Part shown: piece by piece, positions 1 to 47,145 of the stretch
How positions within the stretch are numbered: the stretch's first letter is position 1
Layout of the letters: each line of letters starts with the position of its first letter
Source of the DNA: an uncultured Gammaproteobacteria bacterium
GTDB taxonomy: Bacteria > Pseudomonadota > Gammaproteobacteria > JAADHQ01
Direction: 5' to 3'
DNA: 64,000 bases
NCBI GenBank assembly: GCA_947258655.1
Contig: CAMYJD010000020.1
Span: forward strand, 1 to 64,000
The notes under the pieces: generated by a model
What the model saw: the letters and a program-made list of their open reading frames with translations, nothing else
The model's database searches: none
Told to the model about the DNA's origin: nothing
Program-made: the position numbers and the translations under genes

Positions 1-3000
1 CTGACCCGGGATCGACCAGGCCGAGCCGCCAAACGGCGCCTGTCCACCCGCCGGTGGATTGACCGTGATCGCGACGATCTCGTTGTCGCTAAGACCGCCA
101 GCGTCGGTGACCGTGAACGTGACGTTGTAGGTGCCGGCCGTAGCCGCGCCCGGGGTCCAGTCGAACGTACCGGTGCCGTCCAGATTGTCGGTGAAGGTCG
201 CACCTGTCGGCAGACCGCTTGCAGTGTATGCCAGCTCCGTGACCGGGGCGTCGTCGCTGGCCGATGTGCCGAAGGTCAGCTGCACGCCTTCATTCGTGCT
301 TTGCGGACCGATCGGGGTCAGGACCGGGGCCTGGTTGCCCCCGCTCGGGGTCACGATGAAATCGGCCGAGGCCACGCCACTATCGGCCAGACCGCTTTTC
401 ACGGCAAACGCCTGTACAGTGGCATCTGCAGTCAGTGTGATTGGTGCCGTGTAAACAGGTGAGGCCGTTGATGGTGTAGTGCCATCTGTCGTGTAATGGA
501 CCGTTGCGCCAGTAGTACTGGTTGCCAGCGTCACATCGACCGAATCCGTGAAAGTACCGCCGTTCGGGGTAATGGTCGGAGTTGCGACCGTCGAACCGAC
601 CAGTCGGATCCAGGTCAGGTTAAAGCCCTTGCCATCCATCGCCACGCGCATGATTTGCTGGCCGGCTGCCAGTGTTACCGGGACACTCTGGGTCTGCCAG
701 TTTTCCCAACTTCCGGTATTGGCCAGTGTAATCGGACCGGTGACATCGACACCATTGAATTCGACGTGGATATCGCGGCCACTGTTTGGTGTTGTAGAGC
801 GCACCTCGAGTGTGTAATCACCAGCGGCAGCAACGTCGACCGTATATTCCAGCCATTCACCGGCCTTGTTGGCACCCACATAATTGCCTTCTGTAGCACT
901 CAGCCATATATCGATATCATCGGTTCGGTACTGGGCGCCGGTGTTGCCTGCCGTGGTGTCATGATAGGCAATGCCTTCCCCGCCGAGATCGTAGTCCTCG
1001 ACCTCGATCTGACCCGGGATCGACCAGGGCGATCCACCAAACGGTGCCTGCCCACCCGCTGGTGGGTTGACCGTGATCGTGACGACTTCGCTGTCGATCA
1101 GCCCGCCACCACTCAGATCGGTCACGGTAAAGGTCACATTGTAGCTACCGGCCGTGCCCACACCCGGGGTCCAGTCGAAAGTGCCGTTGCCATTGGTGTT
1201 GTCGGTGAATGTGGCACCGGTCGGCATGCCGGTGGCCGTCATCATCAGTTCGCTGGCCGGGCCATCGTCAGTGGCTGTGACCGGGAAACTCAGGGTCAGG
1301 CCTTCCTCAATGCTCTGCGCCCCTATCGGATTCAGGACCGGGGCCTGATTGGGTGCATTAACCGTAATCGTGACGACTTCGCTGTCGACCAGGCCGCCAC
1401 CGCTCAGATCGGTCACGTTAAAGGTCACATTGTAGCTACCGGCCGTCGCCGCACCGGGGGTCCAGTCGAAGGTGCCGTTGCCATTGGTGTTGTCAGTAAA
1501 AGTCGCACCGACAGGCATGCCGGTGGCGGTCATCATCAGTTCGCTGGCCGGACCATCGTCAGTGGCCGTGACCGCGAAATTCAGGTTTGCACCTTCCGCA
1601 ACACTCTGAGCCCCGATTGCAGCAAGCACAGGTGGTTGGTTGCCTGTCGCAGGTGAAACCGTGATCTCAACGATCTCACTGCTGGCCAGACCGTTACCGT
1701 TATCATCCGTGGCCGTGAACGTAACGCTATAGGGACTTCCTGCCGCATCACCGCCGGCGGGGGTCCACGTGAACGTGCCGGTACCGTCGGTATTGTCGAT
1801 AAAGCTGGCGCCAGCGGGCAGATTGGTCGCCGTCAACACCAGTGGTGCCGGGCCGTCTGCATCACTGGCAGTAACGGGGATAGTGAGCAGTTGGCCTTCC
1901 TGTGTATTTTGCGCCCCAATCGGTGTCAGCACGGGCGCCTGATTGGCGGCAGCAACATCGATCTGTACGACTTCACTGTCTGAGAGGCCATTGCCGTTGT
2001 CATCCGTGGCAGTGAACGTAACGCTATAGGGGCTGCCTGCCGCATCACCGGCGGCCGGTGTCCATGTGAATGAACCGGTGCCGTTGGCATTATCAACAAA
2101 CGATGCACCGGGCGGCAGATTGGTCGCTGTCAACACCAATGGCGCCGGGCCATCTGCATCAGAGGCCGAGACCGGTATAGTCAGGGGTACACCTTCCTGG
2201 GCTGACTGTGTGCCTATGGTTGACAATACGGGTGCCTGGTTGCCGCCACCCGTGCTCTTCGCATACACATCCAGGCGGTCAAACAATGGCTGGGTAGCGG
2301 TTCCACCTGACTGCCCGATGACCAGCTGCACGGTATTACTGCCCGTGGGCAGGTTGGCATTCCAGTCAAGGCTGGCCCAGCTTCCGCGTCTACCCGTGGT
2401 CGTTGGTTTTGTGGTGCCGATACTGACGCCGTTGACGTATAGGGTTACGTCCTTCGCAGCGCCTTCCCAGGAATAGCGGAATGACAGTACACGATTACCA
2501 CCGCCGCTAACGTTGGTCCACTCCAGTATGGCTCCATTGGTATTAACATCGAAATAACCTGTACCAGAGAAATCAGCCAGGGTATTGCCGATTACACCCC
2601 CGGTCTGGGTAGTCGCATCTTCGGCTTCATAACTGGCGAGGAAATTACCGCGGTCCGGGAACTGGCGCGGTTCCAGCAGGATGTCGTCCCAGAATGTCTC
2701 ACCGGATAGACAATCGTACCAACTGCGAAACACGGTATCGATCTTGGCGGCATTGGCTGGTGCCTGGAGATAGATCTTCATCTGCCTCCAGTCGTAGGTT
2801 CCATACGGCGCCCACATGTACATTTCCTTGGTGAGCTTGCCATTACTACTGTTACGCCAGCGTGTAACTGCCAGTGGCTTGCCACCACCACCAACACCCA
2901 CTACATTGTTTCCTTTGACCCAGACCGAGTACTCGTATTCCTGTCCGGCTGTTACACCACTAATATTGTATTGACCGAAATTATGATTGGTCGTTGATCC

Positions 3001-38738: not shown

Positions 38739-40151
38739 ATGTCTCATTACCCCTACAAAAAAAGCAGCAGCATTATGGTTGTCGACGGCTCCGAGGTCTC
38801 ACGCACGATTATTTCGCGCATTATCAAGGCCGAGATGGCAAACACACATATCGTTACCTGCGGTAGCGGTGAAGAGGCGCTTGCGCATCTTAGCCTCGAG
38901 CGCTTTGACCTGATCACCACATCACTGATGCTCCCGGACATGGACGGCCTCGACCTGGCACGCCAGGCGCGTCAGTCTGACACCCATCACTATACGCCGA
39001 TTGTCGTTGTCTCCGGCGATGCCGACAGTCGATTGCTGCGTGAGGGATTTGATGCAGGGGTCACGGATTATTTCGATAAATCCCTGGGATACCAGCCTTT
39101 TGTAGAGTTCATCAAGACCATTACCCGGCGCACCGCTGGTCTCGTCGGGCGTGTCTTATATGTCGAGGATAGCAAGACAGCGGCGATGATTACCCGCCAC
39201 ATTATGGAAAAACAGGGCCTCAAGATCACCCATACCACCACCGCCGAAGATGCACTCAAGTTACTTGAGGATGCAGCCCAATCAACGGATCCAAATGACG
39301 GCTTCGATATTATCGTCACAGACTTTTACCTGAAGGGTAACCTGACCGGCGGCGATCTGTTACATGCAGTCAGGACACGACTACACTACTCACACCAGGA
39401 GATGCCGGTTCTGATTGTAACGGTGCCCGATAATGCCCAGAAGCAGGCCGAAGTCTTTCATGCCGGCGCCAATGATTTTGTCACCAAGCCAATCATCGAG
39501 GAGATCCTGATAGCGCGGATACACTCTTTATTGCTGATCAAGCAGCAATTTAATGCGCTCAAGCGCCAGGCAGAGGAAATGCGCCTGATTGCCGCAACAG
39601 ACAGCCTGACCGGTGTCAAAAGTAAACGCTACTTGCTGGATAATGGTGAAAAATTTGTCTCCGATATGGACAACCACCCAGCCTGCGCCTTCTTGCTGGA
39701 TATTGATCACTTCAAAATGATTAACGATGAGAAAGGGCATATAACCGGTGACCATGTCCTGTCAGAGCTTGGCGGCCTGCTCAATGACAGTTTTTCCAAA
39801 GACTCGATTATTGTACGCTTCGGCGGCGAGGAATTTGCGATTATCCTGCCCAGGACCAGTATAGAAACAGCCAAGATCAAGGCCGAGGCCATTCGCCGCA
39901 AGGTTGAGCGCCTGATGCCGGTCAGTCTTCCGATTACGATCAGTCTTGGTATCGCGTCTACGCTGGATCACCCCGATATTGACCTCAATACCTTGCTGCA
40001 ACTGGCAGACAAGGCACTTTATGCCGCCAAGGAAGGAGGCAGAAACCGCATCTGTATCCACTCGGCACAGTCCGTTGAACATTTGATATTACCCGACATG
40101 GATTCAGGAATATTCGAATTTCTCAATCAGGGCGATCCTGTCCCCCCATAA
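38739..40151 (+). CDS. Response regulator diguanylate cyclase, REC-REC-GGDEF (PleD-like)
   Basis: A 470-residue soluble protein. REC1 spans about 10-130 and REC2 about 137-265, followed by a GGDEF domain (~285-445) with active-site GGEEF (362-366). REC1 lacks the phospho-accepting aspartate: the expected position is S62 in LITTSLMLPDMDG. REC2 keeps it (D195 in IVTDFYLKG, with K250). The I-site position before GGEEF reads SKDS, not RxxD, so product inhibition through the usual site is unlikely. It should make cyclic di-GMP after phosphorylation of REC2. The layout matches PleD. No kinase is adjacent, but the orphan histidine kinase at 35217-36659 is close. Confidence 0.92.
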   Translation: MSHYPYKKSSSIMVVDGSEVSRTIISRIIKAEMANTHIVTCGSGEEALAHLSLERFDLITTSLMLPDMDGLDLARQARQSDTHHYTPIVVVSGDADSRLLREGFDAGVTDYFDKSLGYQPFVEFIKTITRRTAGLVGRVLYVEDSKTAAMITRHIMEKQGLKITHTTTAEDALKLLEDAAQSTDPNDGFDIIVTDFYLKGNLTGGDLLHAVRTRLHYSHQEMPVLIVTVPDNAQKQAEVFHAGANDFVTKPIIEEILIARIHSLLLIKQQFNALKRQAEEMRLIAATDSLTGVKSKRYLLDNGEKFVSDMDNHPACAFLLDIDHFKMINDEKGHITGDHVLSELGGLLNDSFSKDSIIVRFGGEEFAIILPRTSIETAKIKAEAIRRKVERLMPVSLPITISLGIASTLDHPDIDLNTLLQLADKALYAAKEGGRNRICIHSAQSVEHLILPDMDSGIFEFLNQGDPVPP

Positions 40152-40221
40152 TATATTGATTATAAAGCTATTATTAAATAATCCATAAATGGAACTAAAT
40201 ATTGTTTTGTCCTTCTAATAA

Positions 40222-40248
40222 TTAGCACTCATTATGATAGAGTGCTAA
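40222..40248 (+). promoter_or_regulatory. CIRCE operator (HrcA binding site) upstream of rpoH
   Basis: TTAGCACTC (40222-40230) and GAGTGCTAA (40240-40248) are separated by exactly nine bases, which is a perfect match to the CIRCE inverted repeat. It ends 39 bases before the rpoH start codon. The spacer holds TATGAT, which could be a -10 box, so repressor binding would block transcription directly. hrcA is not in the window. Confidence 0.9.
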
Positions 40249-40287
40249 AATAGATTACGAGATCGAGATACAGGAGAACACCACATT

Positions 40288-41151
40288 ATGAATAATGCCC
40301 TTAGCGTCACTACTTACAACAGCACCATGCAAGCATTGACGGGCAATATTGAATCCTACATCCAGTCAGTTAATGCATTTCCGGTTATCAGTAGGGAGGA
40401 TGAGCAGGAACTGGCTGTCAAGCTGCAACAGGACAATGACCTGGCAGCAGCGCGCCAACTGATACTGCCGCATTTGCGCTTTGTCGTTTATATTGCGCGC
40501 GGTTATAACGGTTATGGGCTGCCGCTGGCTGACCTGATACAGGAAGGTAACATTGGCCTGATGAAAGCGATCAAACGCTTTGATCCGCAGCGAGGCGTAC
40601 GCCTGGTATCCTTCGCGGTTCACTGGATCAGGGCGGAAATCCATGAATATATCCTGCGCAACTGGCGCATTGTGAAGGTCGCTACAACCAAGGCCCAGCG
40701 CAAGCTGTTCTTCAACTTGCGCAGCGCCAAGAATCGTCTCGGCTGGCTCAATAAAGAAGAGGTCGATAATGTCGCCAGGGACCTCGGTGTCAAGGCGGAA
40801 ACAGTCCTGGAAATGGAATCCCGCCTGAGTGGCCAGGATATCGGTTTTGATGGCTATAGTGACGATGGTGATGACCATGAGTACCTTGCACCTGCAGCCT
40901 ATCTTGCCCATGACAGCGAAGACCCGGCTGCTGCAATCGAGCATAGTGATCTGTCTGGTCAGCAAAGCGAGCAGTTACATGCAGCCCTGTCGACACTGGA
41001 TGCACGTAGTCAGGACATTCTGGCAGCGCGTTGGCTACAGGAAGACAAGCTGACATTGCATGCGCTCGCGGCCAAGTACAATATCTCTGCGGAACGTGTC
41101 AGGCAGCTGGAGAACAATGCTCTGAAGAAACTGAAACAGGCCATGACATAG
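40288..41151 (+). CDS. rpoH: RNA polymerase heat-shock sigma factor (sigma-32)
   Basis: A 287-residue sigma-70 family protein. Region 2 contains [32 protein letters not shown]-type sequence (around 65-100), and the sigma-32-specific RpoH box reads QRKLFFNLR (from about 139). Region 4 ends with a helix-turn-helix, [22 protein letters not shown]. It directs transcription of chaperone and protease genes on heat or envelope stress. A perfect CIRCE site precedes it, adding HrcA control. It closes the ftsY-ftsE-ftsX-rpoH group. Confidence 0.97.
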
Positions 41152-41849: not shown

Positions 41850-42521
41850 TTAATTTAAATACACGAATTCCATTTGAAAATCGGCGATTTCGATAATGTC
41901 ATGCTCGTTCAATTTAACGGAATCGACAGTAATGGGGGCGCCATTGATTAGTGGCGTAAATTCGGCGGTCACGGGCTTCTTGCCCTGATAAACGGCTATG
42001 CTATAGCCATCCATGCCTCTTGCAATCGTAGCCAGTGTCTTGCCCTTGAATCCGATGGTATTGAGTGGCTTACGCATTTCCATGACCACATTGGCGCAGG
42101 GGCCATTCAATAGTTTAGCTGCGCCCAGGGGCATACCTTTTAGATCATCACTCAATGGATTATTGGTATCGATCATGCGCGTTTCATCCATCTCGGCCTT
42201 GATAAACATCGTCGGCTCATAATCAACATTGTCTTCCGAAAAGTAGGTAAACTGGTGCGAGCCGATCTGGATGATATCACCATGCATCAACAGCAATTTA
42301 TTAATGTAGTTACCATTAACCAGCGTGCCATTGGTCGTGCGCAAATCCTCAATAAAGGTGTCGTTGCCGATATTTGTCAACAATGCATGCCTGCCACTGA
42401 TCGTCATATCATTTACCTGGATATCATTACCATGACGGCGACCGATAGAGATACTGTCCTTGTTGACAGGGAATTCCTTCAGAATTGCGCCATCCAGTGT
42501 CATGATGAGTTTTACTGTCAT
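41850..42521 (-). CDS. FHA domain protein with a second degenerate FHA-like half
   Basis: A 223-residue cytoplasmic protein. The N-terminal FHA domain (~20-90) has the phosphothreonine-binding residues in SIGRRHGNDIQVND, TISGRHALL and TTNGTLVNG. Residues ~130-223 look like a second FHA fold (NTIGFKGKTLATIARG, PLINGAPI, LNEHDIIEIADFQMEFV) in which the binding Arg/Ser/His set is lost. It would read threonine phosphorylation produced by the kinase encoded three genes upstream in the same operon. The gap to the PilU-like gene is 27 bases. Confidence 0.9.
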   Translation of the reverse strand: MTVKLIMTLDGAILKEFPVNKDSISIGRRHGNDIQVNDMTISGRHALLTNIGNDTFIEDLRTTNGTLVNGNYINKLLLMHGDIIQIGSHQFTYFSEDNVDYEPTMFIKAEMDETRMIDTNNPLSDDLKGMPLGAAKLLNGPCANVVMEMRKPLNTIGFKGKTLATIARGMDGYSIAVYQGKKPVTAEFTPLINGAPITVDSVKLNEHDIIEIADFQMEFVYLN

Positions 42522-42548
42522 GTGCTAGCCTTGATTAATATTGGAAAT

Positions 42549-43637
42549 TTAACTGAAGACCTCGTCCTGTAACAGACGATACTGCTCGAATTGCGATTTA
42601 TGCTGTGCATGCTTGTATGCCTCAGTACCTGATATCAGTTTTTCATCGAGCAGCCTGCGCAAGGCATAGTCGAGGGTTTGCATCCCTTGCATGGCGCTAC
42701 TCTGGATCACATTATCCAGCTGTTCAGGTCTGCCATCGCGGATGATATTAGCGACAGCGGGATTATTGACCAACACCTCGATGGCAGCCAGCCTGCCACG
42801 ATTATCTACCGTTCGTACCAGCTTCTGCGAGATTACGCCACACAATGATGTCGATAACATGGTGCGAATATAGGGTTCATCAGTGGCTGGAAACACATTG
42901 ATAATGCGTTCTATGGTTGCCGCAGCACTATTGGTATGCAGGGTACCCATGACCAGGATACCCATTTCGGCAGCCGTTACCGCCAGACTGATGGTATCGT
43001 GATCACGCATTTCCCCGACCAGGATAACATCGGGATCTTCACGCAAGGCCGAGCGTAGGGCATGCGCAAAACTGTCGGTATGCGTACCTATTTCACGTTG
43101 GCTAATGAGACAGCTCTTGTTCTTGTGGGCGTACTCGATCGGGTCCTCAATCGTGATGATATGGCCCTTACGCGATAAATTGATATAATCGACAACTGCG
43201 GCCAGTGTTGTTGATTTGCCGGAGCCCGTAGGCCCGGTTACCAGTATCAATCCTTTCTTGCTATTTGCCAGTGTTTTCATAACCGGCGGTAGTCGCAGTT
43301 CCTCCATCGTCATGATTTGCTCGGGAATGGTCCTGAATACTGCACCGACACCACCAACGTGACGAAACAGGTTTACCCTGAATCGCGACAGACCACTCAC
43401 TTCATAGGAAAAATCCACGCCACCATGCAGGTCAAATTCAGCCTTTTTCTTCTCGCTCATGACCTGGGTCATCAGATCCATGACCTCGTCCTCGCTAAGA
43501 TCACGATATTTAATCGGATAGATATCTCCAAACAAGCGCATACGCGGCGGGTTTCCCGACACCAGATGCAGGTCTGATCCACCCTGTTCAACGACCAGTT
43601 CAAGAAATGCATTTATGCGTTTATTAACGGGTTCCAT
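42549..43637 (-). CDS. PilU-like type IV pilus retraction ATPase paralogue
   Basis: A 362-residue hexameric secretion-type ATPase of the PilT/PilU family. Walker A is GPTGSGKSTTLAA, the Asp box is IITIEDPIEYAHKNK, Walker B is ALREDPDVILVGEMRDHDT and the His box is MGTLHTNSAAATIERI. The terminal region (MQTLDYALRRLLDEKLIS) is PilU-like. Retraction ATPases depolymerise type IV pilin at the inner-membrane motor. It is located in a kinase/FHA operon, not next to yggS/proC where the main pilT pilU pair often lies, so it may be a second set. The upstream PilT-like gene ends three bases before its start. Confidence 0.92.
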   Translation of the reverse strand: MEPVNKRINAFLELVVEQGGSDLHLVSGNPPRMRLFGDIYPIKYRDLSEDEVMDLMTQVMSEKKKAEFDLHGGVDFSYEVSGLSRFRVNLFRHVGGVGAVFRTIPEQIMTMEELRLPPVMKTLANSKKGLILVTGPTGSGKSTTLAAVVDYINLSRKGHIITIEDPIEYAHKNKSCLISQREIGTHTDSFAHALRSALREDPDVILVGEMRDHDTISLAVTAAEMGILVMGTLHTNSAAATIERIINVFPATDEPYIRTMLSTSLCGVISQKLVRTVDNRGRLAAIEVLVNNPAVANIIRDGRPEQLDNVIQSSAMQGMQTLDYALRRLLDEKLISGTEAYKHAQHKSQFEQYRLLQDEVFS

Positions 43638-43639
43638 AG

Positions 43640-44734
43640 CTAGCTGATAGACAGATTGATTGATGGAAGAATATCGGCATTTGTGACAAATTGCTGGAAC
43701 TGCTTTTTATCGCTTGCATGAATATAGGCGTCATCGGGATCGATTTCCTTGTTCCTGAGCGCTGCCAACAGGGCCTGATCCATTAATTGCATACCCTTGT
43801 CAGCACCGGTCTGTAGTACCCCGGGAATCTGGTGGATCTTGCCGCTCAGGATCAGGCTGGAAATGGCAGGCACATTCAGCATGACTTCGAGTATGGCCTT
43901 ACGATCCCTGCCATCAGCCGTGCGCACGAGTTTCTGACTAATAACGCCGCGTAGATTCTGCGCCATAAATGTGGATGCCTGCGCCTTCTGCTCGGTGGGC
44001 ATGGCATCAATGATGCGGTCCAGTGACTTGACCGCTGACGATGTATGCAATGTACCCAATACCAGGTGTCCGGTTTCGGCCGCAGTCATCGCCAACAATA
44101 TGGTTTCCGGGTCACGCAACTCGCCAACCAGGATAACATCAGGATCTTCACGCAAGGCCGAACGCAGGCCATCGGCAAAGGTTTCGACATGTTGACCCAG
44201 TTCGCGCTGTACTACCAGCGACAGCTTGCTTTGATAGACAAACTCGACTGGATCTTCGAGGGTAATGATATTGAGCCGGCGGTTACTGTTCAGATAATTG
44301 ATCATCGCAGCCAACGTGGTCGATTTACCGGTACCTGTTGCACCGGTAACAAGCACGAGACCGTTATTGGTCTGGATCATGTTTTCGACAACCTTGGGCA
44401 GACCCAATTCATCAAGCGTCGGAATCTTCGGTGCGATCACCCTGAAGGTTGCACCAAGACCACCTACCTTGTGAAAGATATTGACACGGAAACGGCCAAC
44501 TTCCTCATGCTCATAGGAAAAATCCAGGTCTTCGCCATTCTCGCTACGTGTTTTGAATGCCGGCGACATGATTTCATAAACCAGGTCCTGCAATTCCGCC
44601 GCCGTCAGGTCACGGTATTTTATCGGATTGAGTTCACCCAATTGTCGGACCAGTGGTGGCGAACCCACAGCAAAATGAATATCCGAGCAGTTCTGCTCCC
44701 TGCCAAGTTGTAGAAATGCGTTAATACGCGCCAT
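43640..44734 (-). CDS. PilT-like type IV pilus retraction ATPase paralogue
   Basis: A 364-residue PilT/PilU-family ATPase. Walker A is GATGTGKSTTLAA, the Asp box IITLEDPVEFVYQSK, Walker B ALREDPDVILVGELRDPET and the His box LGTLHTSSAVKSLDRI. Two PilT-type ATPases in tandem suggest a working pair, as known for PilT and PilU. The PilT-specific AIRNLIR element is replaced by AISSLILSG, so it is diverged from canonical PilT. Its ATG overlaps the kinase stop by one base (TGATG), which ties its translation to the kinase. Confidence 0.92.
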   Translation of the reverse strand: MARINAFLQLGREQNCSDIHFAVGSPPLVRQLGELNPIKYRDLTAAELQDLVYEIMSPAFKTRSENGEDLDFSYEHEEVGRFRVNIFHKVGGLGATFRVIAPKIPTLDELGLPKVVENMIQTNNGLVLVTGATGTGKSTTLAAMINYLNSNRRLNIITLEDPVEFVYQSKLSLVVQRELGQHVETFADGLRSALREDPDVILVGELRDPETILLAMTAAETGHLVLGTLHTSSAVKSLDRIIDAMPTEQKAQASTFMAQNLRGVISQKLVRTADGRDRKAILEVMLNVPAISSLILSGKIHQIPGVLQTGADKGMQLMDQALLAALRNKEIDPDDAYIHASDKKQFQQFVTNADILPSINLSIS

Positions 44735-47145
44735 CAGGACATCTCCTGTAATAGCTGATCAAGGTCTGCGCGCAATGATGCAAAAGTCTGGTAACGCTGT
44801 TGGGGTTCTACGGCCATGCACTTGCGGATAATACTTTCCAGTTTCTCCGGGATTTGCTCATTCAATTCCCGTGGTTTGGCAGCCTTGCCTTCGACATGCT
44901 TCAGCAAGGTCGACATCGGGTCTTTTTCGTCATAAGGAGGTCGTCCTGTAAATATACGATACATGATAACCCCAAGACTGTAGATGTCTGTACGCGAGTC
45001 TATGTCTTCACCACGTGCCTGCTCCGGCGCCATGTAGGTCGGTGTACCCACCAATACGCCGGTCTTGGTGATTCTACCATCCATATTGGAGGCCGCGGCC
45101 GCAAGACCGAAATCAACAATTTTCACCTGATCATTATCGTTGATAAGGATATTGGCCGGCTTTAAATCGCGATGTACAACATGGACCTGCTGGGCAGTCG
45201 TCATACCACGGCAAAGATCCCTGAGGATCTTCACCATACGCTTTATATCTGTAGCAGCACCCCTGTCGAGTTCGTCCGCGAGGGAATGGCTAGGGAAATA
45301 TTCCATTGAAATGGCATAGGATTTTCCAAATGTCAGGAAGTCATAGATGCGGATAATATTCTCGTGGGTAACCTTGCGTGCATACCGTAACTCATGGGTA
45401 AAACGCTGGACGACCGATTCATCACTGGCAAATGACGGGTTCAGGAACTTCAGTATATATTCATCATCAACAACTTCATCATGTACCAGGACCACGGTAC
45501 CGAAACCGCCCTTACCCACGCGCTTGATCACCTTGTAACGATTGGCAATAGCATCACCTTCACGTAATCGATCTGCGTCAATAAGGATTACCGAATGTCT
45601 TTCCTTTTCGATTCTGGGGTTGAATTTGATTTCAGACGAACTCTTTTCCTGCTCTGCAACGGCAGGGACAGCATGCTCGCTCAGCAGGTCAATACCGGAT
45701 CGGCTGAGCACCTGGGTCTTGCCGGCAAATCGATCTGCCAGGTCGGCTGCGGTCTCGCTGGCCAGCGCCTTAATTTCCTCATCATTGATGGAAATCATCT
45801 GCGTGACGGCCTTTTGCACCTGTTCGGCATTATTCTCATCGGCCAGCTGTGATAGAGCGGCTATGGCCTCCTTTTGCACTGATGGATGATTGGTTGCCAG
45901 GGCCTTGATCAAATCCTGCACCGACTCAACATCACCCAGACTGGCGAGCGCGCGTATCGCCACCTGTACGGTCTGCGGATCCTTGCCCAGGAGTTCCCGC
46001 AGTGGTTTGACCGCCTTCTCATTACCCATCGAAGCAAGCGCATCTGCGGCACGTTCCCGTACCCACCAGTCTTCGTCCTTGAGCGCCTCAACCAGGCTAG
46101 CAAAGGCGCGCTCATCCTTGCTGGTATTCAGTATCTCTACAGCGGTACGGCGTAAGAATGGATCTTTGTCCCTGATCAACGCTAACACTGCATCGACGAC
46201 CCTCGGCCCACCAATCGATCCGAGTGCATCTGCCGAGCGCACACGTACCCACCAGTCCTGGTCACGCAAGGCCATCAGTAGATCCTTGATTGCGCGTGTG
46301 TCGCCGACCTCGTTCAATACCTCTACAGCTGCACGACGGATATATTCTGATTCATCCTGCAGGTACTCGATCAGGTATTTAACAGTACTGGCATCGTTAA
46401 GGCGTATCAGTGTTTCTATTGCCTTGGACTGCACCATCATGTCTGGATCACGTAACAGCTTACAGATGACCTGTGCCGGGACGGGGATATCCATACCGGC
46501 CAGGCCTTCCAGTGCCGCCATGCGCACATTTTTATTCGGATCCTTGAGCAGTTGAAACATTGCCGCCCTGATTTCCTCACTACTGAAAGCTGACATCAGG
46601 CGTACAACACGATAGCGGGTTTCGGCAGACTCACTTCTGGAGTAGGTGATCAGGTGCGGGACCATTTCCTGGGTACCTATCGATTCCAATATCTTGAACA
46701 CGGTCTGGCGTAGGCCTGAGGATCCACTATGCAGCTCTTCGAGGAGCTTTTTCTGACTGATTCTTGCACCCTGCTGCTTGATAATATCGACGATATATTC
46801 CTTGCGGATATCATCACGCTGCAATGCATCGATCATAAGGTTGGCATCATACTTGGTGGAACTACCCAAAACCCTTTTGATAACCGGCACAATGGCATGA
46901 TCATCATAGGCCAGTGTATCGAGGTAATATTCCAATGTATCATCGGTAACTAAACCCTGCAGGAGCGACTCGAATACCTCGGCATTTTTCTCTTCGCCAA
47001 GGGCATCAAGAACCAGCGGTATCGCCGACTCACCAACTTTCTTCAAGGTCATGGTCGCCTGAATAACATCAGCAGCAGCAGGCGACACAGACGACATAAT
47101 CGTATTGATCGCCTTTTTCGATTTAACTGAATCAAAAAATCCCAT
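44734..47145 (-). CDS. HEAT-repeat protein fused to a Hanks-type Ser/Thr kinase
   Basis: An 803-residue soluble protein. Residues ~15-475 are about a dozen HEAT/PBS-lyase-type helical repeats (phrases such as DEDWWVRERAADALASMG recur). A linker of about 50 residues follows. The kinase domain is 534-803, with glycine loop GKGGFG (544-549), lysine K566, catalytic loop HRDLKPANIL (D660), DFG at 678-680 and APE in YMAPEQARGE, so it should be active. There is no transmembrane segment or PASTA domain. The repeats probably bind a partner. It is the lead gene of a kinase-PilT-PilU-FHA operon; the counter-acting phosphatase gene is divergent at 48205. Inferred role: phosphorylation control of pilus motors. 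Confidence 0.9.
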   Translation of the reverse strand: MGFFDSVKSKKAINTIMSSVSPAAADVIQATMTLKKVGESAIPLVLDALGEEKNAEVFESLLQGLVTDDTLEYYLDTLAYDDHAIVPVIKRVLGSSTKYDANLMIDALQRDDIRKEYIVDIIKQQGARISQKKLLEELHSGSSGLRQTVFKILESIGTQEMVPHLITYSRSESAETRYRVVRLMSAFSSEEIRAAMFQLLKDPNKNVRMAALEGLAGMDIPVPAQVICKLLRDPDMMVQSKAIETLIRLNDASTVKYLIEYLQDESEYIRRAAVEVLNEVGDTRAIKDLLMALRDQDWWVRVRSADALGSIGGPRVVDAVLALIRDKDPFLRRTAVEILNTSKDERAFASLVEALKDEDWWVRERAADALASMGNEKAVKPLRELLGKDPQTVQVAIRALASLGDVESVQDLIKALATNHPSVQKEAIAALSQLADENNAEQVQKAVTQMISINDEEIKALASETAADLADRFAGKTQVLSRSGIDLLSEHAVPAVAEQEKSSSEIKFNPRIEKERHSVILIDADRLREGDAIANRYKVIKRVGKGGFGTVVLVHDEVVDDEYILKFLNPSFASDESVVQRFTHELRYARKVTHENIIRIYDFLTFGKSYAISMEYFPSHSLADELDRGAATDIKRMVKILRDLCRGMTTAQQVHVVHRDLKPANILINDNDQVKIVDFGLAAAASNMDGRITKTGVLVGTPTYMAPEQARGEDIDSRTDIYSLGVIMYRIFTGRPPYDEKDPMSTLLKHVEGKAAKPRELNEQIPEKLESIIRKCMAVEPQQRYQTFASLRADLDQLLQEMS

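Follow-up and report, generated by a model that had tools for sequence, protein, structure and literature searches.

We identified an rpoH gene in the window (the whole 64-kb stretch of DNA that was analysed), together with a CIRCE operator and two candidate promoters in front of it (Table 1). The encoded sigma-32 was recognized with a TIGR02392 score of 406.7 bits (cut-off 323.1) and contains the RpoH box QRKLFFNLR within an intact surrounding region. Upstream of rpoH, and likewise on the plus strand, are ftsE, ftsX, and the gene of a response regulator/GGDEF protein, in this order; the latter protein, encoded between ftsX and rpoH (38739–40151), is PleD-like with two receiver domains. The leader of rpoH is predicted to be about 30 nt long. 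The genome has a size of 3.48 Mb on 92 contigs and is 98.7% complete; the nearest named matches of the window are unclassified Gammaproteobacteria, Thiohalobacter, and Chromatiales MAGs.

Table 1. Location of rpoH and of the predicted regulatory elements in front of it.
Feature	Position	Strand	Remark
Candidate sigma-E (RpoE) -35, GGAACTA	40191–40197	+	6/7 to GGAACTT
Candidate sigma-E-type -10, TCTAA	40214–40218	+	16 bp after -35
CIRCE operator, TTAGCACTC-N9-GAGTGCTAA	40222–40248	.	Predicted HrcA site; kept at rpoH in genus and class
Candidate sigma-70 -35, TTAGCA	40222–40227	+	Within operator left arm; promoter scan
Candidate extended -10, TGC-TAAAAT	40243–40251	+	Operator right arm plus AAT; promoter scan
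Shine-Dalgarno-like AGGAG	40272–40276	+	Read from sequence
rpoH, heat-shock sigma factor sigma-32, 287 aa	40288–41151	+	TIGR02392 and NF005143 above cut-off

The operator reads TTAGCACTC-ATTATGATA-GAGTGCTAA with zero mismatches and is separated by 39 bases from the ATG of the RpoH reading frame, in agreement with an earlier note on this DNA, which had described a flawless CIRCE at this distance from the sigma-32 start. It is the only CIRCE site of the window at ≤3 mismatches, while 0.02 sites are expected from shuffled sequences. The repressor HrcA depends on GroEL for its activity. A single hrcA copy (TIGR00331, 322 bits) is present in the genome, and three CIRCE sites were found genome-wide at ≤3 mismatches, namely before rpoH, groES, and hrcA. 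The groES site (locus L001) is perfect, and the hrcA site (locus L003) has two mismatches and lies between hrcA and a divergent NAD kinase gene. Because hrcA is followed by grpE and then dnaK and dnaJ, the predicted HrcA set comprises groESL, hrcA-grpE-dnaK-dnaJ, and rpoH. The genome thus holds what the earlier note had proposed to look for, hrcA itself and CIRCE at both groESL and the dnaK cluster. Operator, repressor family, and chaperone targets are the same as in the class I heat-shock CIRCE/HrcA system of Bacillus and others (groESL, dnaK). TTGACT and CCCCTATTAT directly precede the groES CIRCE as a combined sigma-70/sigma-32-type promoter, so that groESL would be a second point at which sigma-32 and HrcA come together. 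Class-wide, groES loci such as L001 (minus strand, just ahead of the CIRCE at 1501–1527) show TATNAT joined to a CCCC box right in front of the operator, as though sigma-70 and sigma-32 shared one -10 region.

The rpoH CIRCE occurs in each of the four species of the genus, with perfect arms and differing spacers. hrcA was found in 35 of 56 relatives, and 33 of the 35 also have a recognizable rpoH; a CIRCE-like site (0–3 mismatches) was detected at rpoH in 30 of the 33, compared to four of 20 relatives without detected hrcA, and three of these four are incomplete genomes (62–86% complete). The joint CIRCE and rpoH pattern was recovered from 139 of 321 sampled genomes of the class, which is a lower bound because the pattern misses real cases (for example G002, G004, and G024). 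Among these 139 genomes, 127 have hrcA (Fisher p = 1.6e-12, a value that overstates independence because the genomes are related), and 103 hrcA-positive genomes in the class sample are without the joint pattern. Named genomes among the matches listed include Methylocaldum, Nitrosomonas, Variovorax, Pseudoalteromonas, Alcanivorax, Dyella, Rheinheimera, Thioalkalivibrio, Comamonas, and a Geobacteraceae MAG. The comparison of rpoH upstream regions in relatives, also suggested beforehand, came out in favor of the site: it is conserved within the genus as well as class-wide, and it tracks the presence of hrcA. The link between rpoH and an HrcA operator is real but not rare, and CIRCE with a putative built-in promoter recurs in front of rpoH across many gamma- and betaproteobacteria and is not peculiar to this genome.

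This candidate sigma-70 promoter is the operator itself, with TTAGCA as -35 and TGC-TAA plus AAT as extended -10. A promoter scan of positions 40100–40320 returned TTAGCA (40222) and TAAAAT (40246–40251) at a spacing of 18 bp, with TG before the second hexamer; this independent, generic scan chose the same hexamers as the conservation analysis. Bases 3' of the operator are near-fixed in 145 distinct rpoH CIRCE loci (position 28, A in 85%; position 29, T in 95%) and make, with the final TAA of the operator, a TANNAT -10 hexamer that is preceded by TGC of the right arm. Bases completing a -10 (TANNMT, i.e., AT or CT at the last two positions) were present at 136 of the 145 rpoH sites and at none of 32 groES sites. 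The groES genes of the same genomes are unlike rpoH in that their -10 (TATNAT) comes first and CIRCE follows within the transcribed leader, whereas the -10 of rpoH extends to three bases past CIRCE. TTAGCA agrees with the -35 consensus in 4/6 positions and the 18-bp spacing is off the optimum; TTAGCA is kept by the constraint of HrcA binding, and its conservation is therefore no proof of its use as a -35. Except for GGAACTT, which peaks at -16, no other conserved -35-like motif was found upstream in 118–145 rpoH CIRCE loci. An operator that overlaps a promoter in this way might exert only weak repression.

Sigma-E promoters of E. coli match the motif pair GGAACTT/TCNNA. The upstream element GGAACTA-N16-TCTAA has the GGAACTT-like -35, the 15–17 bp spacing, and the TCNNA of a putative sigma-E promoter, in a genome that encodes full-length RpoE (E 3.6e-97), and its predicted start at about 40224–40226 falls inside the operator. 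Congeners have GGAACTT (G001) or TGAACTA (G002 and G003) at the same -35 place, and TCTAA follows at exactly N16 in 4/4 species of the genus. A GGAACTT-like motif followed after 15–17 bp by TCNNA was detected at 98 of 136 rpoH loci, compared to a mean of 7.1 and a maximum of 15 in shuffled upstream sequences. The sigma-E-type promoter either overlaps the operator or lies next to it. In most loci, the left-arm TC of the operator and the first spacer bases form its -10, and in the genus of the window the promoter is located 15 bp further upstream than in most loci. In 17 of the 98 loci, the best sigma-E-like match begins at -12 instead of -16 relative to CIRCE, which may reflect a second register or another element.

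Based on these sequence features, CIRCE very probably functions as an HrcA operator that lies on top of the rpoH promoter. In unstressed cells, GroEL-activated HrcA would occupy the operator and thereby cover the -35 and extended -10 of the sigma-70 promoter TTAGCA-N18-TAAAAT as well as the start region of the upstream sigma-E-type promoter. Misfolded protein would titrate GroEL, HrcA would be released, and groESL, hrcA-grpE-dnaK-dnaJ, and rpoH would be derepressed together; newly made sigma-32 would then drive groESL via its sigma-32-type promoter. Such a loop would be a coherent feed-forward, with HrcA repressing rpoH and groESL and sigma-32 activating groESL, and would be closed by GroEL, which would act as negative feedback on HrcA. 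GroEL exerts negative feedback on sigma-32 too. Envelope stress would add a sigma-E input to rpoH.

Three other explanations of the locus were weighed. That CIRCE is a chance palindrome or a relic without function today has a negligible probability given the number of sites expected in the window, the arms kept next to a variable spacer over dozens of families, and the co-occurrence of the rpoH CIRCE with hrcA. A -10 box inside the spacer, raised as a possibility in the earlier note, is very unlikely to mark the true promoter. TATGAT at 40233–40238 agrees with TATAAT in 5/6 positions and congener G003 has TACAAT at the same place, but there is no -35 16–18 bp upstream, G001 (CATTAT) and G002 (TAGCAA) are without the box, and mid-spacer positions are near random in the 145 loci, in contrast to the nearly fixed bases after the operator. 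The spacer box was rejected as it has no -35 and is not kept across all congeners.

It is also conceivable, though unlikely, that HrcA binds CIRCE while the main rpoH promoter lies elsewhere, with transcription coming, for instance, by read-through of genes upstream or from an unrecognized promoter, in which case HrcA would merely trim sigma-32 synthesis and heat control would be exerted on translation and stability as in E. coli. Consistent with this, no terminator-like site was found in the 136-bp gap between the same-strand GGDEF gene and rpoH, and the RpoH region with its box is intact. On the other hand, no second sigma-70-like promoter was detected on the plus strand at 40100–40320, and every conserved promoter motif touches the operator. 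A weak further point against it is that a 180-nt fold around the start codon gave no signal of an E. coli-type RNA thermometer in the form of structure in excess of shuffles, and that 45 CIRCE-positive and 13 hrcA-negative genomes showed no difference in this respect; the test is weak because the E. coli element is longer. The start region of the window is 57% unpaired at 37 °C in the fold.

Outside the class, a stricter search anchored on the K of GLMKA, which would miss sigma-32 proteins with Q, gave no match. The looser anchor of the phylum survey, an ATG-NAR-GC codon pattern, recovered three genomes from one family of another class, in all of which the gene is a true rpoH. CIRCE in these three loci has 2–3 mismatches and TATAAT or a similar hexamer about 10 bases downstream; the sites are located at 482–508 (+) in L248, 501–527 (+) in L249, and 466–492 of the reverse complement in L250. 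The Geobacteraceae locus (L096) is unlike the window in having a -10-like TAATAT just upstream of the operator and TGG after it, which is the groES geometry and not that of an operator serving as promoter. These differing geometries point to possibly separate origins of the rpoH CIRCE. For Geobacter sulfurreducens, a perfect CIRCE at -51 of rpoH was predicted in 2004 (Table 8 in PMC545781), and the HrcA–rpoH link is therefore already known in kind. As in the window, the perfect site near rpoH is accompanied there by groESL and hrcA-grpE-dnaKJ under CIRCE (PMC545781). The linkage of repressor-type and sigma-type circuits put forward in the earlier note is thus supported by hrcA, the other CIRCE targets, and conservation, but not as a singular case, as the arrangement is widespread and had been predicted in Geobacter (PMC545781). 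In the part of the literature searched, we found no description of CIRCE at rpoH beyond that study, and none of the operator-as-promoter geometry, the contrast to groES, or the combination with sigma-E; earlier reports of rpoH CIRCE in beta- or gammaproteobacterial genomes are likely.

Teaching on sigma-32 is usually based on E. coli, where control is post-transcriptional and acts on translation and stability of the factor. The E. coli rpoH is an orthologue that resembles the one in the window in having a sigma-E-type promoter in front, the sigma-E-dependent P3, which is one of several promoters. E. coli is unlike the window in that it has no hrcA (PF01628 was silent in the E. coli control genome), whereas in the window an HrcA operator overlaps the rpoH promoter. 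A joint reading, which we hold tentatively and at somewhat less than even chances, would make HrcA control of rpoH the old default wiring of gamma- and betaproteobacteria: CIRCE plus three bases would by itself form a full extended -10 promoter with a sigma-E promoter overlapping it, and one repressor would gate cytoplasmic and envelope inputs to sigma-32; enterics and others would have lost this wiring along with hrcA and turned to translational and stability control; and Geobacteraceae and the one family of another class would have reached the link with a different geometry. If most hrcA-bearing gamma- and betaproteobacteria gate rpoH via HrcA, the E. coli mode would be a special, derived case, and a comparison of lineages with and without hrcA could serve to trace and test the switch from a repressor to RNA and proteolytic control. 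The operator-as-promoter form yields exact predictions at the level of single bases, which are testable.

Downstream of rpoH, the minus strand encodes in a row (41850–47145) an FHA-domain-like protein, two PilT/PilU-like ATPases, and an 803-aa HEAT-repeat and Ser/Thr kinase-like protein, the translations of which suggest phospho-signaling to twitching motility.
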